Shown here in pieces: positions 4,970 to 34,545 of a stretch of DNA of 44,430 nucleotides. Origin of the DNA: Fusobacterium sp. DD2 (lineage in GTDB: Bacteria > Fusobacteriota > Fusobacteriia > Fusobacteriales > Fusobacteriaceae); assembly GCF_018205345.1 (NCBI RefSeq), contig NZ_JADRHM010000012.1:1-44430 (forward strand), read 5' to 3'. How positions within the stretch are numbered: the stretch's first letter is position 1; every line of letters begins with the position of its first letter. Below the pieces are notes generated by a model. It saw nothing but the letters and a program-made list of their open reading frames with translations. It searched no databases and was not told the origin of the DNA. The translations under genes were made by a program, and so were the position numbers.

Positions 4970-5182
4970 TCACCTCTTCCATGGTGGCAATGTATCTGAC
5001 TGATATGTTTCTAACGGGATATCTGGAACTATTATCGAAATTCCCGAGTCAAATATTGCTATTCCTATCAGTGCAGGATTAGCACGGATAAGATTAGTGA
5101 AATATTTTTCTGAGCCATACACCTTGTAACTGATTAAATCCCAGGTATCGCCGCTTATAGTTGTGTATACTTTAACTTTCAT
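4970..5182 (-). CDS. X: Tail protein gpX (LysM-type)
   Basis: 70 aa from the ATG that overlaps the tape measure stop (TGATG). Contains the LysM-like pattern YTTISGDTWDLISYKVYGSEKY and a C-terminal IIVPDIPLET, typical of P2 GpX family proteins that sit in the tail hub near gpD. Its TGA stop is in frame with the following gpD coding sequence. Confidence 0.87.
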   Translation of the reverse strand: MKVKVYTTISGDTWDLISYKVYGSEKYFTNLIRANPALIGIAIFDSGISIIVPDIPLETYQSDTLPPWKR

Positions 5183-12336: not shown

Positions 12337-13350
12337 CTATTTAACTTTTAATACTCTGATTGCGTCAATATCAAACGGAACAGGTAGCGGTCTTGATTCT
12401 GTTCTTACTTCAACTGTATTAGCTTTTGAATCAGTATCTTCAAATGGTACTCTTTCAGCTTGAATAATTCCTTTTGTAACGTCGACAGCTGCTCCGTAGT
12501 GCAGTACATTCTTTGATGGCGCAAATAATACTGAACCTTCTGGTATTTTTTTCTCAACTTTATATGTTTTTCCGTCTTCATTTAATATCTGTACTTGTGT
12601 TTGGTATGAGTATATTGGGATATTATGTGGAGCTAATGCACCAACATAAGTTGCTCCAGCTGGAAGGTCTTTTGGTGCTATTTTTCCAGCTTCAAAATTT
12701 CTAATATCTAATAGCTTTTGTATTTTTTCATTGTCTGCGAATAATCTAGCCGCCACCGGATCCATAACTATCAGTTCTACTTTTTGTCCTGTAGTTTCTC
12801 CTATTTCACTTATTGTTGATGAAATATCAGCTGCAATAGTAGCTTTATCAGTGTTCCATTTATTTGTAACTGACACTTCTTTAATTTTTCCATAATTGAT
12901 TTCATCTTCTACGCCTTCACCTTTTACTACTACTTTTCCAGTATATAGCACGTCTATACACATCAGTTCTTCTCTTCTTGTAATTTGGTCTTCAAACTCA
13001 GCGTATGATTCTCCTAATAACTTTGCTTTTTTCTCTTCTGGAGAATATCCACCATAAATAGTTTCCCCTGGGATCTTATCAAAGAATAGTTCGTGTCCTG
13101 TAAATGTTCTTTTTGGTGCAACCTTTGGCGCCTTGTAGTATCTGCTTTCATAACTTCTTTTTATCATTTCAGTACCCGGAATAAGCTCAGATACGAATGG
13201 TGCAACTAATTGCCCACCTTTTTTGTATTCAATTTCAAATTTTTGTTTCTCGTGAGCCTTGTGTGTAGCGAAAAACATATCTTTTATAAAGCTCGTAGGT
13301 TTAATAACCTGTTGATCATAAACTCCTAAAAATTCAATTACTGCTGGCAT
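12337..13350 (-). CDS. E: Major capsid protein (lambda gpE type)
   Basis: 337 aa, the length of lambda gpE. Motifs typical of the family: an N-terminal FLGVYDQQVIKPTSFIKDMFF, FVSELIPGTEMIKRSYESRYY, APKRTFTGHELFFD and the C-terminal TESRPLPVPFDIDAIRVLKVK. It directly follows the decoration protein, sharing the last base of one gene with the first of the next. Confidence 0.93.
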   Translation of the reverse strand: MPAVIEFLGVYDQQVIKPTSFIKDMFFATHKAHEKQKFEIEYKKGGQLVAPFVSELIPGTEMIKRSYESRYYKAPKVAPKRTFTGHELFFDKIPGETIYGGYSPEEKKAKLLGESYAEFEDQITRREELMCIDVLYTGKVVVKGEGVEDEINYGKIKEVSVTNKWNTDKATIAADISSTISEIGETTGQKVELIVMDPVAARLFADNEKIQKLLDIRNFEAGKIAPKDLPAGATYVGALAPHNIPIYSYQTQVQILNEDGKTYKVEKKIPEGSVLFAPSKNVLHYGAAVDVTKGIIQAERVPFEDTDSKANTVEVRTESRPLPVPFDIDAIRVLKVK

Positions 13351-13685
13351 TAATATCTACCTCCTAATTTTTTAACATAAATTCCAATTTTTCTAAGATT
13401 TTGTATCACTGTTGCGTCAATTGTGCCCCCTGTAACTTTTAGCCCCTCTGCTATAACTTCTCCAGCTACTACTACAGTAGTTTTTCCAGTTCCAGATGAA
13501 GCGTCAACAGTTTCTAAAACTACGCCAAATGCGTCAGATGCGTCAGTAGTCATAGAACCGTCTGCAGTAACTACCTGCCCTCTTTCAACTTTTTTGTTAC
13601 TAATTGCTAATTCCATTACCTTATGACCAGTACCAGACAATAACTGGTCATACTCATATACATTCCCTTTTTCTACAAATGCCAT
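13350..13685 (-). CDS. Head decoration protein (lambda gpD type)
   Basis: 111 aa. The pattern 'GxVxxxDGSMTTDASDAFGVVLETVDA...GTGKTTVVVAGEVI' followed by a helix and 'RKIGIYVKKL' fits the HDPD / lambda gpD family, which stabilises expanded capsids. Its order (protease, decoration, capsid) is that of lambda C-Nu3-D-E. Confidence 0.87.
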   Translation of the reverse strand: MAFVEKGNVYEYDQLLSGTGHKVMELAISNKKVERGQVVTADGSMTTDASDAFGVVLETVDASSGTGKTTVVVAGEVIAEGLKVTGGTIDATVIQNLRKIGIYVKKLGGRY

Positions 13686-16276: not shown

Positions 16277-16729
16277 TTATGATACAAACATATCATTTAG
16301 TAAATGCTTTTTCACAATAGTTGTCCTCTCTATTAGTTTTTTTTCCTTCTCCAGTGCTGTATCTATTAAATTTATTCTGTAAGCTATATAATCTTGAGTT
16401 GGCTTATCATGGACTGGAATTATAAAATTTTTTAATGCGTCAAATTGCAGGTTTATCGTAGTCGCATATTTAGTTATAAATCTATTCCAATCACGTTCCA
16501 TACTTGTAAATATGTATTTAGGATTATGATCCTCCGCAACAACTAATACTGCATACTTAGTTTCGACCTCTCCTGAATTTTCAAGTATTTCCATAGGTGT
16601 ACTTATCATCGCTGATAGTGGTATAAGTATGCTCTTTGCGGGGTATGTCTTGCCTTTAATAGCTCTTTCCACATCGCCAATATCAAGTATTGATTTCCAA
16701 CTGCATTTGTTCAAGTTTATCTTTTCCAT
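16277..16729 (-). CDS. Half-size type I specificity (HsdS-like) subunit
   Basis: 150 aa. The N-terminal 90 residues are a short possible target recognition domain; the rest shows the S-subunit layout: YIFTSMERDWNRFI, TTINLQFDALKNFIIPVHD, Gln-Asp-Tyr-Ile as in 'EEQxxI', and a coiled coil LIDTALEKEKKLIERTTIVKKHLLNDMF. Normal HsdS has two TRDs and about 400 residues; this one has a single domain, so two copies would have to pair, as known for half-S proteins. Its start lies 47 bases inside hsdM. Together they should make a modification enzyme. The recognition site cannot be read from sequence. Confidence 0.7.
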   Translation of the reverse strand: MEKINLNKCSWKSILDIGDVERAIKGKTYPAKSILIPLSAMISTPMEILENSGEVETKYAVLVVAEDHNPKYIFTSMERDWNRFITKYATTINLQFDALKNFIIPVHDKPTQDYIAYRINLIDTALEKEKKLIERTTIVKKHLLNDMFVS

Positions 16730-17957
16730 TTTCCACTAATTCCTCCATCTGATTTGTTACTGTTTCTATTTCCCGTCTTTTTTCTACTGTTCCAGCTGTT
16801 AAATCTTTCATCATATTTACTAACTCTATTTCGGTATCAAGAATCTCTTTATCTAATACAGCCAGTCCTTCTATAGCTTCTTCAAGTGTATAAGGTAGAA
16901 CTTCAGGCTCAAAAGTATCCACATATCGGGGAATATTTAAGTTATAATCATTTCTTTCAACTTCATTAATCAGGCATACAGCTGCATACTTATCAATAAA
17001 CTTTCTTTGTTCCACTGATTCTATGAGTCTATTGATATGGATATCAGTCATAAAATTAGTAGCACCGTCTTTTTCATAGTCCTTAGAACAATCCACAAAT
17101 AGTATGTCTTTCCTTGTTCGATTCTTTTTTAGAATCATTATTAAAACTGGTATTCCAGTGTTTAAAAATAACTTGTCCGGTAGTCCTATTATGGTGTCTA
17201 TTAGATTATTTTGAATTAACCTAGTTCTGATTTTCTCTTCTGTTCCACCACGAAATAATACTCCGTGTGGTAATATTGCGACCAGTGTCCCGGTTTCTTC
17301 TAATCTATCCAACGAATCTAACAGAAATGCATAGTCAGCTTTACTCTTTGGAGCTAGTCCATAGTCTTTAAACCTATTTTCTTCCTGTCTTTCCTTAGCA
17401 GCATCCCATTTTAACGAATACGGTGGATTAGATATTATAGTATCCATCTTCATCTCTGGAACTTCTGTAAGAACTTCAATGTCACTATATTTATCAGTTT
17501 TAGTTAACTTATAGCAATTAAAAACCTCTCTTGTTAAGGCGTCCCCGTGTATTATAATTGCGTTGGTATTTCTTATACACATATTAAATAGGAGAATAGG
17601 AATTGCACGACCCGAATATTCAAGACAATAGAAATTATCAGCTCCTTTTTGCCATTGCTTCAACGTCAGACCTCCAGTACCAGCACAAATATCGCCAGTC
17701 AATCCCTGCTGATCCGTAAGCCTTGATACAATTTCACAGACACAATCTGGTGTAAAATCCTGTTTTAGTCGGTCTCTATCAGAATGCTCCGACTGATAGT
17801 ATTCAGTAAACCAATCATGGTCAAGTGGTTCTCCCAACTCCATGAATTTATTAAGAAGTGTTTCCTTTTCCTCACTTAATAATTTACTTAACAGAGTATC
17901 CGGCATTTTATAAGAGTCCTTTATTCCTAATATCTCATTTACTTTTTCACTGGTCAT
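16683..17957 (-). CDS. hsdM: Type I-like N6-adenine DNA methyltransferase (HsdM-like), phage-borne
   Basis: 424 aa. SAM motif I DICAGTGG at residues 89-96, after the family start RLKQDFTPDCVCEIV; catalytic motif IV NPPY at 177-180; then KADYAFLLDSLDRL and LVAILPHGVLFRGGTEEKIR, all features of type I M subunits. The C-terminus (from residue 355) is a long coiled coil that should bind the S subunit. No HsdR gene is present. The gene has a good GGAGGTGAG site and lies in the packaging operon between terminase and portal, so expression is late. Self-methylation of phage DNA before packaging is the likely role (inference). Confidence 0.9.
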   Translation of the reverse strand: MTSEKVNEILGIKDSYKMPDTLLSKLLSEEKETLLNKFMELGEPLDHDWFTEYYQSEHSDRDRLKQDFTPDCVCEIVSRLTDQQGLTGDICAGTGGLTLKQWQKGADNFYCLEYSGRAIPILLFNMCIRNTNAIIIHGDALTREVFNCYKLTKTDKYSDIEVLTEVPEMKMDTIISNPPYSLKWDAAKERQEENRFKDYGLAPKSKADYAFLLDSLDRLEETGTLVAILPHGVLFRGGTEEKIRTRLIQNNLIDTIIGLPDKLFLNTGIPVLIMILKKNRTRKDILFVDCSKDYEKDGATNFMTDIHINRLIESVEQRKFIDKYAAVCLINEVERNDYNLNIPRYVDTFEPEVLPYTLEEAIEGLAVLDKEILDTEIELVNMMKDLTAGTVEKRREIETVTNQMEELVENGKDKLEQMQLEINT

Positions 17958-17990
17958 GTTCTCACCTCCTATACTGGTATGGTTCCACTA

Positions 17991-21148: not shown

Positions 21149-21541
21149 TTATTCTGCTTTTTTTAGCTCCTTCACTGCTCTTTTAAACTTTCTATATACA
21201 TCCATTCTACTGCATTGCATTTCTTCAGCTATCCTTTCATAAGTATAGCCTTTTACTAATCTGTATCTGCATATAGCTCTCCAAGTTGGCGAAGGTAATT
21301 TTTCTATTTTCTCCATCAGATTAATACGGGCATTTATCAGATTACTTATTTTCTCCTCCTGATCCATAATCCATTTAATCTTAGAAGTCAGTCCGTTGTC
21401 AGTAGATACAGGCCCTTCACCTGTCAGTCCTTTAGTATACCGAATAGCTTTAAGTCCATCCAGAGTACTCTTCACCTCCTCTACAGCTTCTATGAGACTG
21501 CTGATTTCAACGTCGTATTCATATACCGATTTAAAATGCAT
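21149..21541 (-). CDS. RinA/ArpU-like late transcription regulator
   Basis: 130 aa from the ATG that overlaps the helicase stop (TGATG). The N-terminal 90 residues are helical; the C-terminus has a sigma-70 region 4-like helix-turn-helix: WRAICRYRLVKGYTYERIA followed by MQCSRMDVYRKFKRAVKEL. This build and its place just before terminase match phage late regulators of the RinA/ArpU type. It probably acts on the promoter immediately downstream. Confidence 0.8.
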   Translation of the reverse strand: MHFKSVYEYDVEISSLIEAVEEVKSTLDGLKAIRYTKGLTGEGPVSTDNGLTSKIKWIMDQEEKISNLINARINLMEKIEKLPSPTWRAICRYRLVKGYTYERIAEEMQCSRMDVYRKFKRAVKELKKAE

Positions 21542-22923
21542 CAGCATCTTCCCCCTTTTTTATACTTATCTATTCTAACTTTTAAACTATTAAGCAGTGC
21601 TTCCTGGACATCTCCTTTACACTCCAGCGCCTCCATCACATCATCGTCCCTGGTATTCTTAGTTACCAAATGATGTATGATAACTTTCTCCTGCTGTCCT
21701 TGTCTGTGTAATCTCTTATTGGCTTGCTGATATAACTCAAGACTCCAGTTTAATCCAAACCAAACAACGTGATTTCCTCCAGCTTGGAGATTCAACCCAT
21801 AAGCTGCACTGGCAGGATGTGCAAGTAGTACATCTATTTTTCTATTATTCCAATCCTGCTGGTCTTGAACCGACTCCAATAATCTGACTTTTAAGTCTGT
21901 CTTTTTCAAGGCCTTTTGTAATTTTATAAGGTCGTGTTTAAAATTATAGAAAACTAAAGCCGGCTTGCCATTAAGCTCCTCCATAAGTTCTAAAAATCTA
22001 TCAATTTTACAGTTGTGTATATCAACAATATTTTTATTGTCATCGTACAACGCACCATTCGCTAATTGCTGTAATTTATTAGACAGTGCTGCAGCATTGG
22101 CCACATTTATTTCCTGATCTGCTACCTCCAACACCATCTCTTTTTCAAGTTCATCATATGCTTTTTGTGCTTTGGTGTCTAAAACTACTGGAATCTTCTC
22201 GTAAGTTATATCAGGAAGTTCCAAATAGTCTTGTGCGCTCATTGATATGCATACATCTGATATTTTTCTTCTGATAGCTTCATCTGCTCCTGTTTTTGGT
22301 TCATAATTAAAAATTACCATCTGGTTACGTCTTCCTGGAACAAAATATCTTTCCCGATACCTTGAAATAGTCTTTTCTAATCTCGCACCTTGGTCAAGTA
22401 GATACATCTGTGCCCATAAATCCATGAGTCCATTCGGCGTGGGAGTTCCTGTCAATCCCACTATTCTTTTTATTTTTGGTCGTACGACTTTCAATGCCCG
22501 AAAACGTTTAGCCCGTGGATTCTTGAAGCTGCTCCACTCGTCCATAATTACCATGTCAAAGGGCCATTCAGTCTTGTAGTGCTCCACTAACCACACTACA
22601 TTCTCACGATTGATAATATAAACATCTGCATTGACTGATAAAGCTTCAAGCCTTTTCTTTTCGCTACCAAGAACTAATGAAGTTCTTAATAATTTTAGAT
22701 GGTCCCATTTTTCTACTTCATCTGACCATGTTGCCTCTGCCACCTTTTTAGGTGCTATAACTAAAACTTTACTGACTTCAAAACGATTATAAATTAAATC
22801 CTGTACAGCTGTAAGTGTAATAATAGTTTTACCCAGCCCCATATCAAGTAGCAGCCCCAACTTATCGTCATGGATCATACGCTCAATGCAATATTTCTGA
22901 TAGTTATGTGGTTTAAATTCCAA
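21541..22923 (-). CDS. SNF2-type DEAD-box helicase
   Basis: 460 aa from a TTG start overlapping the VRR-NUC gene. Walker A GLGKT at residues 29-33, Walker B-like MDEW at 127-130 (DEAH replaced by DEWS), motif III LTGTPTPNG and a C-terminal helicase domain ending in ANKRLHRQGQQEKV. Phage SNF2-like helicases of this size usually stand beside a VRR-NUC nuclease, as here, and take part in replication or recombination. Confidence 0.92.
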   Translation of the reverse strand: MEFKPHNYQKYCIERMIHDDKLGLLLDMGLGKTIITLTAVQDLIYNRFEVSKVLVIAPKKVAEATWSDEVEKWDHLKLLRTSLVLGSEKKRLEALSVNADVYIINRENVVWLVEHYKTEWPFDMVIMDEWSSFKNPRAKRFRALKVVRPKIKRIVGLTGTPTPNGLMDLWAQMYLLDQGARLEKTISRYRERYFVPGRRNQMVIFNYEPKTGADEAIRRKISDVCISMSAQDYLELPDITYEKIPVVLDTKAQKAYDELEKEMVLEVADQEINVANAAALSNKLQQLANGALYDDNKNIVDIHNCKIDRFLELMEELNGKPALVFYNFKHDLIKLQKALKKTDLKVRLLESVQDQQDWNNRKIDVLLAHPASAAYGLNLQAGGNHVVWFGLNWSLELYQQANKRLHRQGQQEKVIIHHLVTKNTRDDDVMEALECKGDVQEALLNSLKVRIDKYKKGGRC

Positions 22924-23215
22924 TTACATCACCTGCCAAGGTTTCAATAAAGTTGTCTATCTCTTCATAAGTTGCCAAAATATACACATCCACTCCGCAT
23001 TTTCTTATTTTATTAATAACAGCTTTCTGAAGTTTTGAAAGATTATTCCTCTTATCTGGTGCTTTCAACTCCACAAATCTGACTTTTTTATTTAAAATTA
23101 CTATCCTATCAGGTACTCCAGCTGTTCCCGGACTGGTCCATTTTATGCACAGGCCTCCCGAGTCCTTTACCTTTTTTTTCAAGTAATCTTCTATCTGCTT
23201 TTCTGAAATTCTCAT
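22913..23215 (-). CDS. VRR-NUC domain nuclease
   Basis: 100 aa, the whole protein being one VRR-NUC domain of the PD-(D/E)XK type: N-terminal EKQIEDYLKKKVKD, catalytic GVPDRIVI (Asp) and FVELKAP (Glu-x-Lys), then LSKLQKAVINKIRKCGVDVYIL. Probably resolves branched DNA with the adjacent SNF2 helicase. Confidence 0.92.
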   Translation of the reverse strand: MRISEKQIEDYLKKKVKDSGGLCIKWTSPGTAGVPDRIVILNKKVRFVELKAPDKRNNLSKLQKAVINKIRKCGVDVYILATYEEIDNFIETLAGDVIGI

Positions 23216-23342: not shown

Positions 23343-23466
23343 GTTTACATAGTATACAAATTAATTTAAGACTGCTATAATTGATACTTACATGTATAAA
23401 CTAATTTATAAACTAGTGCGTAAACTGGAGAAAAGGGTTTACATTTGCTTGGTTTACAAATTTACA
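23343..23466. other. AT-rich iteron-like region, candidate replication origin
   Basis: The 246-bp gap between VapE and VRR-NUC genes is non-coding and rich in TATATA runs (23250-23340). Near its left-gene end, TATAAACTA occurs at 23395 and 23407, and CGTAAACTG follows so that the AAACT core falls at 23398, 23410 and 23422, exactly 12 bp apart. The inverted form TTTACA occurs at 23344, 23438, 23453 and 23461. Phased iterons beside a primase gene suggest an origin. Confidence 0.5.
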
Positions 23467-25915
23467 CGTCCGGTTTGCACTTTTTAAATCCTTTTTGTAT
23501 GCCATAACTTCCAAATCTAGCTGTGCTTTTTATGCGCTCCCAGTCCTTTAGGTTAGACATGATGGCAGTAATCTCACGACTGTCCATAGGTTTTATGAAT
23601 CTCTTATCATTTTTTAAAGCTTCTTCCCATATCTCAGCTACGCATACCCTATCACGTTCCACCCAGGTATCCTGAACACGCTCGTCATATTCATCAAGTA
23701 TTAGCCTCCTTGTATACAGGTCCAGCTTGTACCAATTCTCTGGAAGTTTCTTATCCAGATAATCCAGGATTAAACCTTTTTTCATATTACCTTCTTTATG
23801 TTCTTCCTGTTCTATTCTAGCTAATTCACTTGCCTCTTCTCCTAATAATAGACTTATATCATTATCCAATGCCTTATTATATGCCTCAGCCCACAACTGT
23901 TCTACTTCGTCATCCAGGTCATCAAATATAGATTTTTTAGTTTTACCAGTAAATGCATCAATCGGCCAAAAACGTCTTCCTCCAGATTCATCATTTAAAA
24001 ATTCAGCATCGTTCGAAGTCCCGATGAATACACATCTTCTTGGATATATATTAGTACGTCTTCCGTAAGCTTCACGGAATATATCTTCCTGCCTACTTAA
24101 AAACTGTTTAGCCGCGTTCTTCTCTGACTTCCTCAATCCTGTTAGTTCTCCAACCTCTACGATCCAACTCCCTTGGATAATCTCACATGCTTCTTTACCC
24201 TCAAAGGTTACCAACGAATCATTGTACCAGTTTCCACCAAGTTTCCGTAAGAATGTTGATTTACCTTTACCCTGAGGTCCTATTACTACGGGCATGGTAT
24301 CCCACTTGATACTCTTATTTGATACAGCTCTTTTTACAGCTGCAATCATTGTTTTCTCAGCAACTTCACGGGTATAAGCATTATCTGCACATCCTAAATA
24401 ATCCACAAACATAGTTGGAAGTCTTTCAACTCCGTCCCACGCAAGTGATTTCAGATACTCCTCCACAGAGTTTCTTGCGTTGTTCTTAGCTGTAAGATTT
24501 ACTGCGTCCTCGATTTTGCTTTTTCCTGTTATATCAAAAATCTTTTCAAGATACCAACGTATACCAGCATCATCAGTATCTGTCCATAATCTCTCTTCGG
24601 TGTTATTATCCCAAGGTAATGCACCTTCAACCATCATTCTATTGGAGAAGGTATCGGTGAATATTTTACCCTTTAATTCAGGAGAGTTTGCCAATATGAT
24701 TAATAAATTAGGAAGTGTAGGAGCAACTGTTCCATCAGCTCCAGCATCTAACTGTTTCATCCATTCAGTATCGTGTACAACCTCTCCTTCTTGTACCACT
24801 TCAGCTGTATCAATCCCGCCGTTTATAAACTCCATACTCTCAGCAAATTCCTCTTGCGCTGTTTTTATATTCTCAACTAATAAGTCATCTGCCACATTTG
24901 TATTCTTTCTTATGAAGTCCATGGTAGCCTTCCAGCTTGGCAAACGATTAACTGGAGTATTCGGATCTGCTTCCTCATCAAGATGTCCAAATTTGTGCAG
25001 CCTTAATAAATCAAAAGAGTTAACTAACTTCTGTGAGCATGGATCCGTTGCGTGATGAGAGTATAAAAATAAACCGTCACCATAGATTACAGCTCCAGCT
25101 GATGTGGATCCACCTGAATAAGTTAGTCTGTCAGGTATATCAGTTTCTGTATACGCATCAGGTAGGAATTCAGCTATAGTCTCTCTTATGTCGTATCTTC
25201 GGCAAAATGCTCCAATCAATCCGGATTTTTCAGTTGGATTCTCTTGTTTTTTCAGCATATTCTCGTAAAGCTTTTCACATCCAGGAATTACTGACCAAGA
25301 AGTTATATCTTTCCAATCTGCGTACATTTTTAAAATACCCTTACCATCTACCATAGGCTTATCTTCGTAAGTAAAAACATAATCAGAGTCTTTGGAATGG
25401 CTCGGCCAATACATTAACCGATCCGCTTGGAAAGTAGTTGGGTCACAATACTTTATTCCTATTATTTCAGCAATTTTTCTTGCTATTGGCTCATACTCAT
25501 CTGGAGTAACATCATAAGCCAATGGAAGTATTACTCTCAATCTTGGCTTAATTTTGCTGTGCTTTCTAGTACTATAGACTGCATATCCACAACCTAGTGC
25601 ATTTAAAGTTTTCAGGACTGCAGTATCATCTCCCAGACACATATTATCCATATCTAAAGTTATTAAGCTTCTTGAGTGTACGGCTTCTTTAATTCTGTTA
25701 GGGCCTGATAAGTTACCCCCGACAAATCCGCCCACATCTTTCAGATTGTCCTGGTCTTTTTTAGAAAGACGCATATAAGTTGTAATTGTTTCTTCTGTAA
25801 CTATAGGTTTGCTTATTCTATCCACAAAACTTGCCCAGCTCATTTCAATAGTTTTCCAGCTCTTGCTGAATCTGTTAGTAGCTAGTGCTAGTTTCAGCAG
25901 TCTATTATTTACCAT
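23462..25915 (-). CDS. VapE-family primase/helicase
   Basis: 817 aa from the ATG at 25915, which has AAGGAGG 11 bases upstream (the frame extends to a GTG at 25939). The N-terminal half holds a primase-polymerase-like region with LDMDN (residues 87-91) and STRKHSKIKPRLRVILPL; the C-terminal half is a virulence-associated E ATPase, with Walker A GPQGKGKST near 546-554, EVGELTGLRKSE and FIGTSNDAEFL downstream. It would prime and unwind DNA at the phage origin. Length is usual for such phage proteins. Confidence 0.9.
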   Translation of the reverse strand: MVNNRLLKLALATNRFSKSWKTIEMSWASFVDRISKPIVTEETITTYMRLSKKDQDNLKDVGGFVGGNLSGPNRIKEAVHSRSLITLDMDNMCLGDDTAVLKTLNALGCGYAVYSTRKHSKIKPRLRVILPLAYDVTPDEYEPIARKIAEIIGIKYCDPTTFQADRLMYWPSHSKDSDYVFTYEDKPMVDGKGILKMYADWKDITSWSVIPGCEKLYENMLKKQENPTEKSGLIGAFCRRYDIRETIAEFLPDAYTETDIPDRLTYSGGSTSAGAVIYGDGLFLYSHHATDPCSQKLVNSFDLLRLHKFGHLDEEADPNTPVNRLPSWKATMDFIRKNTNVADDLLVENIKTAQEEFAESMEFINGGIDTAEVVQEGEVVHDTEWMKQLDAGADGTVAPTLPNLLIILANSPELKGKIFTDTFSNRMMVEGALPWDNNTEERLWTDTDDAGIRWYLEKIFDITGKSKIEDAVNLTAKNNARNSVEEYLKSLAWDGVERLPTMFVDYLGCADNAYTREVAEKTMIAAVKRAVSNKSIKWDTMPVVIGPQGKGKSTFLRKLGGNWYNDSLVTFEGKEACEIIQGSWIVEVGELTGLRKSEKNAAKQFLSRQEDIFREAYGRRTNIYPRRCVFIGTSNDAEFLNDESGGRRFWPIDAFTGKTKKSIFDDLDDEVEQLWAEAYNKALDNDISLLLGEEASELARIEQEEHKEGNMKKGLILDYLDKKLPENWYKLDLYTRRLILDEYDERVQDTWVERDRVCVAEIWEEALKNDKRFIKPMDSREITAIMSNLKDWERIKSTARFGSYGIQKGFKKCKPDV

Positions 25916-25931
25916 ATTTTTTATGTCCTCC

Positions 25932-26276
25932 TTAATCACATAATGGTGCTGCAGGCATTAGTACAAATTCATATATACCATCAGATTGATTTTCTTCTGC
26001 ATATACAAATTGGCTCGATGTAGTGAAGTACAATCTTATATTTCTACATTTTTTTACTCGTTCCATGTACTTGAGTATATATTTATTTGTGAATGAAATC
26101 TTAAGTGGCCGTGTCGATGCACATAAGACTTCAACTGGTCCTTCAATTATTTTAGTGTTTTCATCATTCACAGCCTCCAGTGCTCCTCCTGATCTGTCTA
26201 CACATAATCTAACTATGCCGGACACTTTTGAAAATTCTTTTAGTACCTTTATGAATCCGTCCGGTTGGATATCCAT
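25932..26276 (-). CDS. Sliding-clamp-like protein, C-terminal domain (after in-frame amber)
   Basis: 114 codons from the first ATG after a TAG. The pattern VRLCVDRSGGALEAVNDEN, LKISFTNKYILKYMERVK, NIRLYFTTSSQFV and the end YEFVLMPAAPL aligns well by eye with the third domain of bacterial beta clamps (E. coli DnaN: VRLYV..., GFNVSYVLDVLNAL, YVVMPMRL). No ribosome binding site precedes the ATG, and the frame is continuous with the upstream ORF apart from one TAG at 26310-26312. Expression would need read-through, or the gene is broken. Confidence 0.65.
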   Translation of the reverse strand: MDIQPDGFIKVLKEFSKVSGIVRLCVDRSGGALEAVNDENTKIIEGPVEVLCASTRPLKISFTNKYILKYMERVKKCRNIRLYFTTSSQFVYAEENQSDGIYEFVLMPAAPLCD

Positions 26277-26309
26277 ATAGTCTGTATAATTTGCTTTTGC
26301 TTTCTCCAG

Positions 26310-26657
26310 CTAATCCAACTTTAATACCGGGCAGTCTATAGATGTTTTTATAGTTGTAAAAATACTATTTTCTTTCATTAGTTCAATTGTTATATCTTTA
26401 TCTACTGTAATCTTAATCCACTCAGGATTTATCACTTTAATTGCTTTTACTATTCTATAATGAATACTTATATCAGTATCGAAGTAAAAACCATGATACC
26501 ATGCCAGTCTGTAACCATCACTTGTGTACATTCCTTTATATCCTAAAACTATATTTCCTGCTGCTCTGACAGTGTCTACGGCTTTTCTATTCTCAGCAAT
26601 ATCGACTAAAGTATATAATTTTTTCAGTTCTGATTTATTTAAGATTTTTGATTCCAT
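26310..26657 (-). CDS. Sliding-clamp-like protein, N-terminal part (middle clamp domain), ends at amber TAG
   Basis: 115 aa with a start GGGAGAG site. ELKKLYTLVDI, AAGNIVLGYKGMYTSDGYRLAW and IFTTIKTSIDCPVL match the second beta-clamp domain (E. coli DnaN region with ATDGHRLAV and FTSKLVDGRFPDY). The first clamp domain is absent. Without the TAG, this and the next ORF would be one 241-residue, two-domain protein, the size of T4 gp45, which forms a trimer. The assignment is my own alignment by eye; the functional state is uncertain. Confidence 0.65.
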   Translation of the reverse strand: MESKILNKSELKKLYTLVDIAENRKAVDTVRAAGNIVLGYKGMYTSDGYRLAWYHGFYFDTDISIHYRIVKAIKVINPEWIKITVDKDITIELMKENSIFTTIKTSIDCPVLKLD

Positions 26658-27228
26658 TATTCTCTCCCTTCAAGCTCCAATCCCCATCAATTCGGCCTGT
26701 ATTATTTCGCCAGTTCGATAGGTAAGTACTGACAATTAATTCACAACTAAATCCCCTATACTCAGCTATTAACATGTAAAGTCTTAATATCTCCATTAAA
26801 TACTTAAATCTATCATTTATAGGAGCATACAATGTCTTCTTCAATTGGAAAACAAGTTCCATTATCAATTTGTATTTATCTTCTTTTTTTAAGTAATCGA
26901 CTTCCTGATATAGTACTGCATCCTGGCGTCTCCATAATTCAAGTAAATCATTAACTGGTGTCATGTTAAATTTATTAAATAGCTGGAGTATAAAAAATAA
27001 TATGTCAGCAAATTCTTTTACCTCATCATCATATGAATACTCTTTCTCCTTCCAATTCTTAAAATTTAAAGCCTCTGGAACTTCCTTAAGCCATTCCTGA
27101 AGTTCGTCATCAAGTCCTAAGATTATATCTTTAGTATCTCGTTTTCGTGGAGTAAATCCGTTATTCCGCTCTGATTCTATTATTATTTCTAAATCACTTT
27201 GTAATTTAAGTAATCCTATAAATGTCAT
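26635..27228 (-). CDS. Dimeric dUTPase / MazG-like NTP pyrophosphatase
   Basis: 197 aa, helical. DDELQEWLKE (residues 39-48) with NFKNWK and DEVKEFADILFFILQLF carries the two acidic metal-binding helices of the all-alpha NTP pyrophosphatases (dUTPase_2 type). It would remove dUTP or another nucleotide during phage replication. Overlaps the clamp-like gene by 23 bases and follows ssb. Confidence 0.75.
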   Translation of the reverse strand: MTFIGLLKLQSDLEIIIESERNNGFTPRKRDTKDIILGLDDELQEWLKEVPEALNFKNWKEKEYSYDDEVKEFADILFFILQLFNKFNMTPVNDLLELWRRQDAVLYQEVDYLKKEDKYKLIMELVFQLKKTLYAPINDRFKYLMEILRLYMLIAEYRGFSCELIVSTYLSNWRNNTGRIDGDWSLKGENNGIKNLK

Positions 27229-27244
27229 TTTTTACCTCCTAACA

Positions 27245-27613
27245 CTATAAAAATGGAAAGTCCTCATCGTCCCAGCTATCATTATTAGTTTGAGCTATTT
27301 CCTTATTTTTAGGGCTTAATAATTCTATCGCTTCAACTACAACACTGTAAGTTATTCTGGTTTCATCTTTGATTTTATATCTTCCCATCTGTAACCTTCC
27401 ACTTACACCAACACGATCTCCTTTATGGACATATTTCTTTATAATATCCGCCTTAACTCCAAAAGCTACACACTTTATAAAATCAGCTTCGTCTGTTTTA
27501 AAAGGCCTATTTACAGCAATTGAAAATTTACAATAGTCAGATCCACTTTGTGACATATTAAACTCTGGATCCCAAGTAAGTCTCCCGATTAAATTTACAT
27601 TATTCAATTTCAT
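27245..27613 (-). CDS. ssb: Single-stranded DNA-binding protein
   Basis: 122 aa. OB-fold of the bacterial SSB family: MKLNNVNLIGRLTWDPEF, CKFSIAVNRPF, FIKCVAFGVKADIIKKYVHKGDRVGVSGRLQ, and the acidic C-terminal tail DDEDFPFL used for protein contacts. Short, as usual for phage SSBs. Overlaps the membrane protein gene by 14 bases. Confidence 0.95.
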   Translation of the reverse strand: MKLNNVNLIGRLTWDPEFNMSQSGSDYCKFSIAVNRPFKTDEADFIKCVAFGVKADIIKKYVHKGDRVGVSGRLQMGRYKIKDETRITYSVVVEAIELLSPKNKEIAQTNNDSWDDEDFPFL

Positions 27614-29474: not shown

Positions 29475-30773
29475 TTATTTGAATGATAAAACGTCCTGTA
29501 TTCTCTTCTTAGCATCCTCTAATCTACCAGTCATTATGCATTCAAATACTTCGTTAAGGGCTAATGCTTGTCCACCTTGCATATCCTCGGCTATTCCATA
29601 CATAACGCTAAACCAGCTCTTACCATATTCTTTTTCAAATTCTTCTCTGAAGTTTTCAGCCATGATGAGCTCTTCTCTCCAATAATCTGTATTTAAAATC
29701 ATATTTATATATTCCTGTGCCTTCTGATAGTCTATAGCTCCTGCTTTCTTTTCTGCTCTGACTAAGTATTTTATTACAGTTCCTAGCTTCCAAGCAGTTC
29801 TACCTTTACAGTCTTTAATAGTGAATTCAATTACATCTCCAGCAGTCAACCCGTTAGCTAGTACATAATGGCTTGGTTTAACAGGATCATCGCAATTTTT
29901 AATTTTTTCAACAGATTTAACATCATTTTTAATAGTTTTAACGGTTTTTTCTTCGGATTTAACGTTTTTTATATCTTTTTCAACAGCTTTTTCTTCCATT
30001 TTAAGCTCCTCTACTTTTCTGTTTTTGTTTTGTTTTTCCAGATCATCAAGTTCCTTCATATCGTTTTTAAAAATCTTTTCCAAAAATTCTTCTCCCTTTG
30101 ATTTTTTTGGTTTTGTTTTAACCATTTCAAAATCCTTGTCTAAGGTTCTTCCTTTCTCAAACTTTCTTCCCATATTTGCCTCCCAACTTTTAATCATTTC
30201 TTCTTTAAACATGATATCTCTTGCTAGATAGCACATATACTTGACTGATAGGTCTATTATCTTCGCAAGTTCTTCTTCTTTCTTTCTTTTAATAAAATAA
30301 GGATATAACCTATTATCACTTAGTAGGCTAATCAGTTTAGCCCACACGGATATACTTCCCATAAATCCAGCTGGTAATCTTTGTGCTCGGTCATCCTTAC
30401 TTTCAGGAATAGGATTCCCAAAAGCTGGAGCACACACAGACACATAATTAACCATCAGTGCAGAGATATATGGAGTTACTTCAACATCGTCATCATCTGA
30501 ATCCGGATATAACTCCTCGTATAATTTATCAGTCAGGTTTTTAACTCTGCCAATTAAGCCGCGATAGTAAGGATTTAAGTATCCATCGTGTTCTTTTATT
30601 TCTTTATCCCAGATAGCTTTGTGTTTTCCAGTCACTACACTTAAATTCATTAAATGAGTTCTTGCTTCTAGTTCCTGAACCTCTGCTTGTGATGGTATAG
30701 GTGCTGGTTTAACTTTTTTTGTTTCATTTATTTTTATTTCTCTAGGCTTACGGGGTTTGATTTTTCGCACCAT
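29475..30773 (-). CDS. DUF3310-containing phage protein with long unknown N-terminus
   Basis: 432 aa. Residues about 296-365 match DUF3310 (DPVKPSHYVLANG, then LGTVIKYLVRAEKKAGAIDYQKAQEYI), a small domain seen in phage nucleotide-metabolism proteins. Residues 235-290 are a Lys/Glu-rich, partly repeated linker (KSVEK, KTIKN and similar). The N-terminal 1-215 is not recognised; it begins basic and Pro-rich. Usual DUF3310 proteins are much shorter, so this is a composite protein. Confidence 0.75.
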   Translation of the reverse strand: MVRKIKPRKPREIKINETKKVKPAPIPSQAEVQELEARTHLMNLSVVTGKHKAIWDKEIKEHDGYLNPYYRGLIGRVKNLTDKLYEELYPDSDDDDVEVTPYISALMVNYVSVCAPAFGNPIPESKDDRAQRLPAGFMGSISVWAKLISLLSDNRLYPYFIKRKKEEELAKIIDLSVKYMCYLARDIMFKEEMIKSWEANMGRKFEKGRTLDKDFEMVKTKPKKSKGEEFLEKIFKNDMKELDDLEKQNKNRKVEELKMEEKAVEKDIKNVKSEEKTVKTIKNDVKSVEKIKNCDDPVKPSHYVLANGLTAGDVIEFTIKDCKGRTAWKLGTVIKYLVRAEKKAGAIDYQKAQEYINMILNTDYWREELIMAENFREEFEKEYGKSWFSVMYGIAEDMQGGQALALNEVFECIMTGRLEDAKKRIQDVLSFK

Positions 30774-30782
30774 AATCTCCTC

Positions 30783-32753
30783 CTAATCCTTCATATAATA
30801 GTTACCGGTAAATCCGGCAGCGTTTAATACTAATCCTGGAGCCCATTCAACAGGCTGACTCATGAGGTTAACAACATCATCCAGTTTTACAGTGTCAGGC
30901 ACATCTAAAATAACTTCATCATGTACATGGAATACAATATCCCACTTTTTATCTTTTAACCTTTTTAAAGTAACAGCCAGACAGTCCCGAGCTATAGCTT
31001 GCACAACGTTCTCCACAAGCTTTCCACCATACATATCAATCTGTTCCCACTTTTTCGTATTTTGATTTACTCCATAATAACAAAACTGTTGTCCGAATTT
31101 TCCTTCGTGTAGGGAAGGCTTTGGATAATATAATTTCCGTCCTGATGGAAGCTCAACAGTTAAAAATATTTGACCAGTAGGAAGATTAACTTCTTTTTTT
31201 AAAACTAGGCACTTAAGATTTACAGTTGTACCATTCTCAACTACATCCAGCGCAGCATTTTCAAGGTCATACCACAGTTGCACTATATTAGGTGAACTCT
31301 TTCTCCAGAGATTAACAATGTCTTTAAGTTCTGAATCTGTTAGACCCATTTTATCGGCTCCCATTGCTTTTAATGCTCCAACAGATCCTTGATACCCTAA
31401 TGCCAGTTCTGCTACTTTTCCTTTTGCCCTCAAAGCATAATTCTCATGCCCTTTTACAATTGTATTCAGTGGGACATTAAACATTTGGGCAGCTGATGCT
31501 TCATAGATTTTCCCGTGGGACTTGAAAACTTCCATCCGCCACTTTTCTCCAGCTAGCCAAGCTATTACACGGGCTTCAATTGCGCTGAAGTCAGATACAA
31601 CAAACACATGCCCAGTGGATGGAATGAAAGCTGTACGAATTAGTTGTGACAAGGTGTCAGGAACATTCCCGTATATCATTTCAATTCCTTTATAGTCCGC
31701 TTTTTCTATAAGATGTCTTGCCATGTCCAGGGTCTCGATGTAATTTCTAGGTAGGTTCTGTACCTGTACCAGTCTTCCAGCCCATCTACCAGTCCGGTTA
31801 GCGCCGTAGAACTGCAGCAGCCCACGAATTCTATTATCTTCACAGATTGCATCCGCCATGGCTTGATATTTTTTTACGGATGTTTTGGCAAGCTCTTGTC
31901 TGATCTCCAGTGCTCTCCTTACATCTCCATCTAATTTATCTTGAAGTAGGGCTTTAACAGTTGCTTTCCTTAGGTTGTCCACCTCTTCTCCTTTTCCATT
32001 CAGCCAGTTAATCATTTGCTGTGTAGAATTTGGATTCTCTAGTCCAGTTAACCGTTTTGCCTCTTCCATCAACTCAGATTTACTCATGTCATCAATCATC
32101 AAAGCACCTCTTACAAGGTCTGTGTCTATTTTGACTCCTCTGGCATTCATTTCTGTGTTCATATGCCACTGTTCCCATTCGCTATCAGGAACTGGAAAAG
32201 GTGCAAGTGTCTTAGCTATTTCCATCTCCGTTACAACGTCCTGCACACAGTACTCTTTAAATAGATCCCACTTCTCTGGCTCGTGTTCGGGAAGATTTCT
32301 CGTTCTCTTTCCATTGCTCTTAGTAGGTTTACAAGGTATAGAAAAATATCTAATCAACGCAAGTCCTGTATTTAGCTTCTGTTTATCTTCTGCTAATCCT
32401 AGTGCCTTACCAGTTGCACCCAGTCCTGCACAATATCCGCAATACAGCCCGTGAATCATAGTACACTGCCATTGTTCTAATGGTGTTTCGTATCCTGCCT
32501 GATTCAGACACCACCATTCAAATGCAGCGTTATAAGCATGTTTTACATAGCTTTCATCTTTCAGGAAGTTAAGTACCTCCGTTGGAATCTTTTCTCCTTG
32601 TGCAAGATCTACTATCTGTACTTCGTTATTATCAATACTGTAGGCGAATAATAGGATTTCAAAATCATCAGATAACGCATATTTATATGCTCCTGCGCTT
32701 TTAATGTCAATGCTGCTGTAGGTTTCTATATCTATGTTTAAATGATGTAGCAT
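30783..32753 (-). CDS. polA: Family A DNA polymerase (phage Pol I type)
   Basis: 656 aa. 3'-5' exonuclease start IDIETYSSID (residues 7-16, DIE catalytic residues), motif A VVSDFSAIEARV (386-396), motif B RAKGKVAELALGYQG (442-456) and motif C VHDEV (610-614). The 'YGANRTGRWAGRLVQVQNLPR' part of the active site lies at 316-336. All key residues are present, so it should be active. Typical length for phage family A enzymes without a 5' nuclease domain. Confidence 0.95.
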   Translation of the reverse strand: MLHHLNIDIETYSSIDIKSAGAYKYALSDDFEILLFAYSIDNNEVQIVDLAQGEKIPTEVLNFLKDESYVKHAYNAAFEWWCLNQAGYETPLEQWQCTMIHGLYCGYCAGLGATGKALGLAEDKQKLNTGLALIRYFSIPCKPTKSNGKRTRNLPEHEPEKWDLFKEYCVQDVVTEMEIAKTLAPFPVPDSEWEQWHMNTEMNARGVKIDTDLVRGALMIDDMSKSELMEEAKRLTGLENPNSTQQMINWLNGKGEEVDNLRKATVKALLQDKLDGDVRRALEIRQELAKTSVKKYQAMADAICEDNRIRGLLQFYGANRTGRWAGRLVQVQNLPRNYIETLDMARHLIEKADYKGIEMIYGNVPDTLSQLIRTAFIPSTGHVFVVSDFSAIEARVIAWLAGEKWRMEVFKSHGKIYEASAAQMFNVPLNTIVKGHENYALRAKGKVAELALGYQGSVGALKAMGADKMGLTDSELKDIVNLWRKSSPNIVQLWYDLENAALDVVENGTTVNLKCLVLKKEVNLPTGQIFLTVELPSGRKLYYPKPSLHEGKFGQQFCYYGVNQNTKKWEQIDMYGGKLVENVVQAIARDCLAVTLKRLKDKKWDIVFHVHDEVILDVPDTVKLDDVVNLMSQPVEWAPGLVLNAAGFTGNYYMKD

Positions 32754-32805: not shown

Positions 32806-33390
32806 TTATGCTTTTATAATCTCTCCTGTGATAGGGTCAATCTCAACAGATGAGAATTCGTTTTCAGCTTTGATTCCTGCGCTTGATAATGGTTCTCCGT
32901 CGGCAAGCTTTTGTATGTTTCCAAGACCGCATCCTATCCCTTTTTTGCCGCCTACGGCATATGGGAAGAAGTTTATTGTTACTCTAGCATACATTCCACT
33001 GTATACTTCTGTTTGGTCGATTATTGGGTTGCATAGATTGTCTACTATGCCAGGTTTTCTATCAGCTTTTGAGCTTGCAGTTATAACCCAATGACCTTTA
33101 CATTCCTCACCATATTCCATCCCATCACTTGGTCTTGTCCCGTCACCGTCATGTAGTGGGTTGGCAACCTTTGGTGGTCTCTTTCCGCCCCATTGCTTTT
33201 GTTCTCCCTGTTTAGTTGCTTCCTCTATTGCGCTTTGAATTTTACCCATGGTAACTGTGTCTGATTTAGGTATTAAAATAGTAGTGCTAAATTTAGCTTC
33301 CTGCCCTTCAGTAGGCGCGTAAGGTTCAAACAAATGTACATAACTTAAACGTACTTTCCCGGTCATAATTCTAGTATCTGCCATATTCAA
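32806..33390 (-). CDS. DUF2815 protein (probable ssDNA-binding)
   Basis: 194 aa. The pattern RIMTGKVRLSYVHLFEPYAP, KFSTTILIPKSD, MYARVTINFFPYAVGGKKGIGCGLGNIQKL is that of DUF2815, which has an OB-like fold and is regularly encoded between a DUF2800 nuclease and a family A polymerase in phages. Likely protects ssDNA in recombination or replication. Confidence 0.88.
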   Translation of the reverse strand: MNMADTRIMTGKVRLSYVHLFEPYAPTEGQEAKFSTTILIPKSDTVTMGKIQSAIEEATKQGEQKQWGGKRPPKVANPLHDGDGTRPSDGMEYGEECKGHWVITASSKADRKPGIVDNLCNPIIDQTEVYSGMYARVTINFFPYAVGGKKGIGCGLGNIQKLADGEPLSSAGIKAENEFSSVEIDPITGEIIKA

Positions 33391-33396
33391 TTCCTC

Positions 33397-34545
33397 CTAT
33401 TTATTTACAGCTGAGAATTCATCAACTGCATTAATCACATTACTAATAGCTTGTCTTTTATCTGACACAGCTACCAAAGTTGGTTTACCTGGATTCTTGA
33501 TAATTAAATCACCAACTAAATCATTGAACGGTTTTTTCCCAATGACCTTCTCCATCTGAGCAAGTGTCAAAGTTGTTCTTTTATAAAGTAGTGCTTCATC
33601 AATTCCATTCGAAGTAAGCACTTTTATAGCATCATCTGTATTTTTAAATTCTCTTACTGATCTTCCATTAACTGCCTTCCATCCTGGAACCTCTTTTCCA
33701 TTCAGGCACTCTTGTAATGCCCAGTCTTGTAGTCCCTTAATCCAGTCTTGAAGTTGTTTCCCTTGTTCAAGTATCGCCCCAACTTCTTCTGGTGTAAGCT
33801 CTGGTGGTTTTCTGAATTCAAATTTAGCTAGCTCCATATTCTTATCGGCTAGTGCCCTACATGTTGCTTTAGCTTTACAGAATTTACAGTGTTCGCCTGG
33901 ATTAAATTCTCCTTCTCCTTTTACCGCTAGTGCTGCTTTTTTCTTAGCCTCTTCTGCAAATTGGAGTAAATATTCTAGGTCGCATTCCCAAGTTTCAATA
34001 TTGCCAATACGAGGTTGCACAATGCTCATCTTTATGTGTTTTATATCGTAAAATAGATTTATAGACAGCCATGCTCCTAATGCATATAGAAGCATTTGCT
34101 TATTCTCCACAGGACTTACCTCAACACCTTTACCATATTTGAAATCAATTACTTGAAGTGTTTGACCTCCTACCAGAAGGCAGTCAGCAGTTCCAAAACC
34201 ATCAGGAACGTAGTCGGCAAATTTAATCTTTTGCTCCACTGCCACAAATGGATTAGTGTAAGCATATACCTGTTCCATTACAAAATCAGTATAAGTTTCT
34301 GCGTGATCCAGCATTTCCTTGTCATAAAGACGGTGTTTTTTAAGTTTTTCAATTTCACTATTGCATTGCTTTTCTGTTATTTTGCCTAATAGAGATAGAA
34401 GTTTATTCTCACATACTGCGTGGGCAACAGTCCCTTCCAGTGCGAAATCACTAGTTTCATTAGGCATGTCCTTTGTCAGTAATACAGAAGGTGGACAGGC
34501 CATCCACCTTTCTGCACTTGAAGGACCTAGGAGCGCGTGAGCCAT
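33397..34545 (-). CDS. DUF2800 nuclease (Cas4/RecB-like)
   Basis: 382 aa. Start ALLGPSSAERWMACPPSVLL with a first Cys, LEGTVAHAVCE (His), GTADCLLV (Asp) and LQVIDFKYGKG (Asp-x-Lys), then a terminal cluster HCKFCKAKATCRAL. This is the PD-(D/E)XK nuclease with an iron-sulphur cluster arrangement (one upstream and three clustered Cys), as in Cas4/AddB-like DUF2800 proteins. Works with DUF2815 in phage DNA processing. Confidence 0.88.
   Translation of the reverse strand: MAHALLGPSSAERWMACPPSVLLTKDMPNETSDFALEGTVAHAVCENKLLSLLGKITEKQCNSEIEKLKKHRLYDKEMLDHAETYTDFVMEQVYAYTNPFVAVEQKIKFADYVPDGFGTADCLLVGGQTLQVIDFKYGKGVEVSPVENKQMLLYALGAWLSINLFYDIKHIKMSIVQPRIGNIETWECDLEYLLQFAEEAKKKAALAVKGEGEFNPGEHCKFCKAKATCRALADKNMELAKFEFRKPPELTPEEVGAILEQGKQLQDWIKGLQDWALQECLNGKEVPGWKAVNGRSVREFKNTDDAIKVLTSNGIDEALLYKRTTLTLAQMEKVIGKKPFNDLVGDLIIKNPGKPTLVAVSDKRQAISNVINAVDEFSAVNK

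Follow-up and report, generated by a model that had tools for sequence, protein, structure and literature searches.

A candidate two-domain sliding clamp derived from bacterial DnaN, cut by one in-frame TAG, in the replication module of a Fusobacterium prophage

The replication module of a prophage in Fusobacterium sp. DD2 contains a gene that appears to encode a phage sliding clamp derived from DnaN (bacterial beta), with domain I lost, domains II and III kept, and the reading frame cut by one TAG that would fall in the interdomain linker. The gene lies in the window, by which we mean the whole stretch of 44,430 nucleotides that was analysed, which is contig C12 of the source genome (a draft of 2.36 Mb in 155 contigs). 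The explanation that we favour, held at about even confidence and drawn from a two-domain family known from two members, one of them broken, is that the protein is a phage clamp formed from DnaN minus domain I, that its intact form is a DNA-encircling trimer, and that the window copy is broken. Of this explanation, ring closure, the trimeric state, the partner protein and the loss of function are what we infer. The intact form, found in another genome of the same genus (G001), would most likely close around DNA as a ring of three, like T4 gp45 and PCNA, and would tether, via the pocket between domains II and III, a protein of phage replication, for which the module's own family A polymerase is a candidate. 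With its own copy broken, the window prophage would rely on one of the two full-length clamps of the host, or work without a clamp.

The joined frame runs from 26657 to 25932 on the minus strand and on translation comprises 241 codons, with exactly one internal stop and then a terminal TAA; a preliminary description of two same-frame ORFs split only by a TAG at 26310-26312 was correct in this respect. The N-terminal ORF (26310..26657, minus strand; 115 aa), identified from the ORF list, its Shine-Dalgarno sequence and a profile match made with the G001 relative, corresponds to DnaN domain II and ends at the TAG. Its Shine-Dalgarno sequence is a good one (GAAGGGAGAGAATA-ATG). The TAG itself (26310..26312, minus strand) is placed by alignment with the intact G001 protein just past the end of domain II, in the linker between domains II and III. 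It is followed by 11 in-frame codons (26277..26309, minus strand), which contain a GGAG and no in-frame ATG, GTG or TTG, and the next ATG lies 33 bases past the TAG. There the C-terminal ORF begins (25932..26276, minus strand; 114 aa; stop TAA), which was assigned to DnaN domain III by PF02768 and by a profile match with the G001 relative. The absence of a ribosome binding site for this part, also described earlier, was confirmed: no Shine-Dalgarno sequence was found in the 22 bases preceding the ATG at 26276 (AAAAGCAAATTATACAGACTAT), and the nearest GGAG, counted on the sequence, occupies 26307-26304, 27 bases ahead of that ATG.

Domain III was the sole Pfam match in the window protein (PF02768, E = 2.9e-05, 24.3 bits, under the 27-bit cut-off; search at E up to 10), and PF02767 was not reported by Pfam for either the window or the G001 protein. 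Because Pfam finds only domain III, the domain II call in the window protein rests on profile comparisons made with the relative. When the alignment of the window and G001 proteins was split at the TAG and compared with DnaN domains profile to profile, the first half matched domain II at 97.2% (domain I, 0.3%; domain III, 0.1%) and the second half matched domain III at 98.7% (domain I, 10.6%; domain II, 1.9%). The window read-through protein also matched phrog_947 (DNA polymerase processivity factor) in the PHROGs database over positions 151-362 of 368 (E = 7.3e-06). A domain I profile found nothing better than E = 0.33 in window open frames of at least 50 aa, that match being frame 12340-13356, and nothing in open frames of this minimum length across the 20 kb around the G001 copy; its sole match in the G001 protein's own frame falls over domain III. 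A PDB search with the two-protein profile (E up to 1) returned 28 sequences, comprising 24 beta clamps and 4 unrelated chains, with no gp45 or PCNA chain among them. The best match, 1vpk, was covered over residues 179-376 (domains II-III; E = 1.5e-07) in the same register as the domain comparison, and many weaker matches covered domain III only. The earlier claims that the joined sequence consists of clamp domains II and III with domain I missing, and that it derives from a beta clamp, were both upheld by these comparisons, which support descent of the window and G001 proteins from bacterial beta rather than from gp45 or PCNA.

Other assignments of the window protein were less informative. Family phrog_13987 ("radical SAM") matched the read-through protein at E = 7.4e-05, a match rejected as chance, since matches to this family also turned up in 96 of the 98 phylum genomes and in all 14 controls; a phiKSUM protein annotated as radical SAM is a radical SAM enzyme by Pfam, with no clamp similarity and no listed phrog_13987 membership. 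A weaker match of the read-through protein, to phrog_6615 (E = 0.097), had no counterpart in the source genome, whereas 8 of 14 controls matched that family at E up to 1. AlphaFold modelling of the read-through window protein gave a pLDDT of 34.0 alone and 30.0 with three DnaN relatives, the second alignment placing the window domain III poorly.

With the C-terminal ORF as the query, 5 of 149 related genomes showed a match, the window's own genome included. One of them, G001, has a 231-aa open frame, within which lies an intact protein of 227 aa (P0001). Residues 2-223 of P0001 align with the window read-through frame at 32% identity, with one TAG inside the alignment. Since an independent intact protein aligns along it, the joined window frame is more than chance, and the two-domain form is real and not produced by the stop. 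A check of related prophages for a sense codon at the place of the TAG had been proposed, and G001 has an uncut version there. The G001 protein matched phrog_947 at E = 6.1e-18 (positions 152-365 of 368) and PF02768 at 35.8 bits, above the cut-off, and its gene has the ribosome site AGGAGG and is flanked by open genes.

By alignment, the window and G001 copies start at the same place in the clamp, though they are 32% identical, and in a maximum-likelihood tree of 28 clamps they group together (support, 92/90), both on long branches whose placement is unsure according to the program; this grouping may be a long-branch artefact. The shared start at this identity, together with the tree grouping on long branches, suggests that the two-domain form is persistent. 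Both observations also speak against a decaying remnant of a three-domain clamp, functionless in any phage, with the loss of domain I as part of the decay, as do the intactness of the G001 copy, its strong ribosome site, its retained pocket motif and its position between open genes. The broken window copy and three related modules without a detected clamp are what such decay would leave, and we regard it as the least probable of the readings considered.

Setting aside two short frames, G055 C126 (302 aa) and G032 C3 (68 aa, from the family search), the two-domain form was found among 98 phylum genomes (E up to 1e-3) only in the window genome and G001. Besides the G055 frame, the phylum search gave two other frames shorter than 310 aa, in G023 C67 (85 aa, at a contig end) and G067 C1 (290 aa). 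The latter (L061, 1184921-1188427) was rejected as a short clamp, being a three-domain gene frameshifted inside domain I and short only in its open frames. No further member of the window/G001 type was found in IMG/VR viral contigs, where the matches were three phrog_36605 loci (L125-L127) and one three-domain clamp (L137). GTDB genome contigs yielded two ordinary 367-aa DnaN genes and no further two-domain member, in a scan that also missed G001. With the G001 protein as the query, plasmids gave no match and the phage collection gave no two-domain member, its one weak match (E = 0.9) being a 399-aa DnaN; with the window protein as the query, the phage collection gave no match. No near-identical window copy was found in the collections searched, which may omit records very near the window's own genome. 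Titles and abstract openings in the literature searched, in which few subscription journals are covered, described no two-domain beta-derived phage clamp.

The clamp gene is embedded in a phage replication module (all genes on the minus strand). Directly upstream of it, and overlapping its start, is a dUTPase_2 (MazG-like) gene (26635..27228; PF08761, E = 7.6e-09), and its stop codon, as read from the sequence, is overlapped by the ribosome site AAGGAGG of a VapE-type helicase/primase gene (23462..25939; PF05272, E = 2.1e-72), for which ATG 25915 is the likely start and 25934-25928 its own Shine-Dalgarno sequence. The module further includes genes for an SSB (27245..27613; PF00436, E = 4.8e-26), a VRR-NUC nuclease (22913..23215; PF08774, E = 3.6e-06), an SNF2-type helicase (21541..22923; PF00176, E = 8.2e-22), a DUF3310 protein (29475..30773; PF11753, E = 1.3e-09), a phage family A DNA polymerase (PolA; 30783..32753; PF00476, E = 3.5e-18), an Enc34-type single-stranded DNA (ssDNA)-binding protein (DUF2815; 32806..33390; PF10991, E = 1.8e-62) and a DUF2800/PD-(D/E)XK nuclease (33397..34545; PF10926, E = 1.1e-141). 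Relatives of the window PolA (E up to 1e-40) were found in 8 of the 98 phylum genomes, the window's own included. As judged by comparison with the window's genes (BLAST and profile), their surroundings comprised the DUF2800 nuclease, the ssDNA-binding protein and the polymerase, with VapE, VRR-NUC and the SNF2 helicase everywhere except in G026.

The place of the clamp in this module varies, lying between the dUTPase and VapE genes in the window and after the SNF2 gene in G001. Full three-domain clamps are present in the related modules of G070 (385 aa) and G074 (368 aa), and the G028 module has a 257-aa phrog_36605 protein. No clamp was detected in the 19 kb around PolA in G079, G026 and G087 (three of the eight PolA-bearing genomes), and some relatives of the PolA module may do without one. 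On IMG/VR contig L137, a 376-aa clamp lies near genes that by eye are DUF2800 and DUF2815 like. In a pattern scan, the window PolA showed no clamp-binding motif and the G001 PolA showed one match (QILLFA at 31), which may be chance. As a separate observation, the phage PolA of G087 (L124, C1:1489193-1491158) is contained in two overlapping frames, representing a frameshift or a split gene. The source genome itself carries two full-length DnaN paralogs (L001, C46:2818-3552, and L002, C49:17830-18549; open frames of 385 and 369 aa, respectively), which the tree places in two distinct groups, and each group is represented in several genomes of the family.

In E. coli beta, the pocket for partner motifs sits between domains II and III, as described in PMC11139829. 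Pocket positions were mapped onto E. coli numbers by motif, an assignment of our own, with the central residues compared rather than the whole pocket list. According to the alignment, the window protein keeps SDGYRL, P110, Y193 and an MP near the C terminus, and the G001 protein keeps SDSYRL, P109, N181, Y184 and an MP near the C terminus. Changes were seen at N320, which is T190 in the window, and at M364 and R365, both altered in the two two-domain proteins.

Pocket retention of this kind would also be expected of a clamp mimic, an open or monomeric two-domain protein whose pocket captures host clamp-binding proteins, such as the delta subunit of the clamp loader or a polymerase, and so redirects or inhibits host replication. 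A conserved pocket centre in a protein that lacks domain I, and with it half of the beta dimer interface, agrees with this reading, as does the roughly 50-fold stronger binding of delta to a monomeric beta variant than to the dimer, described in PMC11139829. Nevertheless, a replicative role is suggested by the neighbours of the gene in the phage module (PolA, helicases and ssDNA-binding proteins) and by the full-length clamp that the related modules of G070 and G074 carry; the second helices are also more basic, a property needless in a decoy. A mimic is, on balance, unlikely.

The charge of these helices bears on the favoured reading of a DNA-encircling clamp. Summed over both domains, the second helices, which by homology we take to line the channel, have a net charge of +6 in both two-domain proteins, and each of the 14 three-domain rows lies between -2 and +4. 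No charge excess was seen in the first helix of domain III (+1 in both versus -2 to +3). Such basic second helices fit a ring that encircles DNA. Contacts of the beta dimer lie where the first helix of domain III ends. The G001 protein has 7 fewer columns in this stretch than 12 of 14 three-domain rows, and the window row is aligned differently there; with this site shortened in G001, closure of a ring would need another interface. In beta, two residues of the dimer contact, Ile78 and Phe106, belong to domain I (PMC11139829), and because that domain is absent, the known interface between domains I and III cannot form.

Compared with DnaN (PF00712, PF02767 and PF02768; phrog_947), the two-domain proteins have domains II and III and the pocket centre in common, whereas DnaN has three domains in about 370 residues and they have 227-241 residues with no domain I found. 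DnaN forms a head-to-tail dimer (domain I with domain III), and the two-domain proteins are without that domain I. Sliding clamps are rings of six domains, built from three two-domain protomers (gp45 and PCNA) or from two three-domain protomers (bacterial beta). The architecture of the gp45/PCNA type, in which three two-domain protomers make up a six-domain ring, is described in PMC4858162. The window and G001 proteins resemble T4 gp45 and PCNA in having two clamp domains per protomer but show no sequence match to them, their descent being apparently from the bacterial clamp. A ring of three two-domain protomers would be the simplest closed form.

TAG is an ordinary stop in the window, terminating 14 of 58 other ORFs (picked by eye), including those for PolA and DUF2800. 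The tRNA complement of the source genome comprised 62 Rfam matches over the cut-off, with 150 of 193 first-look candidates scored by Rfam, and 60 of these had an anticodon given by ARAGORN. No CTA anticodon (CUA tRNA) was found among the 60 tRNA genes with a readable anticodon; the two remaining matches are very similar 60-base remnants without an anticodon arm (C51:11948-12007 and C6:262-321). The RNA around the TAG showed no unusual fold (z = -0.82). The source genome also has a selenocysteine tRNA with anticodon TCA near a contig end (C14:33-120).

The preliminary description had raised amber read-through and loss of function as alternatives and had proposed looking for a suppressor tRNA in the host, which is the tRNA survey above. 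Read-through as the normal state is not borne out by the ordinary use of TAG, the tRNA survey, which found no CUA tRNA, and the unremarkable RNA fold; neither a suppressor tRNA nor recoding of TAG throughout was seen, and amber recoding of the phage gene is not supported. Loss of function is instead favoured: since no suppressor tRNA was found and the second half has no Shine-Dalgarno sequence, the window clamp copy is most likely inactivated and non-functional. The TAG is the only lesion seen in the gene, so the break would be recent. A single lesion would also be left by a sequencing or assembly error, with the gene intact in the real phage, and the other window replication genes compared with relatives are open frames in a genome that is a 155-contig draft; an error of this kind is rather improbable in our judgment.

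Lower still in probability, and doubtful in our view, is a split clamp, in which domains II and III would be made as two polypeptides, by re-initiation past the TAG, or with a little read-through product, and would still assemble. The stop does fall in a short linker, each ORF is almost exactly one domain, the joined frame has no other stop, and just 33 bases separate the TAG from the next ATG. Against this, the second start has no Shine-Dalgarno sequence, the RNA fold is not unusual, no CUA tRNA was found, TAG also ends this phage's PolA and DUF2800 frames, and the only relative found is unsplit.

A possible second short family is phrog_36605, annotated as "hypothetical protein," with members of 257-267 aa in the Fusobacterium phages phiPaco (WPH65482.1), phiFN37 (WPH65310.1) and phiKSUM (WPH65651.1). 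The protein in the module of G028, a genome of the same family as the source, is a member (E = 1.1e-121); relatives also occur in the three IMG/VR contigs L125-L127. G028 carries a protein 89.9% identical to one of phiPaco, on which ground the host was taken to belong to the Fusobacteriaceae. The G028 and phiPaco members sit in the same polymerase module, and the phiFN37 and phiKSUM genes are in other surroundings. Separately, the phrog_36605 gene on L127 (6087-6860; IMGVR_UViG_2513237330_000001) is frameshifted, a second broken short clamp-like gene.

Clamp matches of phrog_36605 in single-profile searches were weak and within domain III (E = 2.4e-06 to 7.4e-04), including the DnaN of G048 (E = 2.4e-06) and the G001 protein P0001 (E = 6.2e-05). 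Profile-profile comparison with DnaN gave 9.4%, below significance, and Pfam found no match in the G028, phiFN37 or phiKSUM members. A spaced pocket motif, in a pattern written after the members had been seen, was present in five of six intact members (phiKSUM lacked the full motif) and, with the same reservation, in 74 of 100,000 shuffles of the G028 member. Scanned against 514 distinct frames of at least 150 aa, the pattern matched 58, and 57 of these were read as clamps or phrog_36605 by locus and length; the false positive was window frame 16686-17987, a DNA methylase by eye. Control scans matched 6 of 10,280 shuffled sequences and 0 reversed ones, and the window clamp was missed because its frame is cut. 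Among G028, L125 and phiPaco, dN/dS was about 0.23 to 0.32 (our own division of computed values), indicating proteins under selection. The motif with its spacing and the short length resemble the window/G001 type, and the sequence is very divergent; phrog_36605 is likely a clamp homologue, on evidence that is only suggestive.

Taken more widely, Fusobacteria phages may have turned the dimeric three-domain beta into a trimer-closing two-domain protomer, possibly in two families (window/G001 and phrog_36605), a proposal made tentatively, at somewhat less than even confidence. That the window phage then took a further step, splitting the protomer into single-domain polypeptides, is very improbable. 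A natural two-domain protein recognisable as bacterial beta would show conversion between clamp architectures and, if the trimer reading is true, a route to the gp45/PCNA architecture starting from DnaN; if the G001 protein closes no ring, it would be a phage-made clamp mimic instead. This protein is small (227 aa) and would allow direct tests of whether it closes into a ring, is loaded by the bacterial clamp loader and binds polymerase, and either outcome would aid the annotation of "hypothetical" genes in Fusobacterium phage replication modules.

Two other features of the window were observed. At 16277-17957, two ORFs that by eye are DNA methylase-like and (the shorter one) HsdS-like lie between portal-like and terminase-like prophage genes. 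At 5182-7935, a tape-measure-like ORF contains a direct repeat of about 25 residues (LMKFVKIIKIVGLALKAAFISNPVG).
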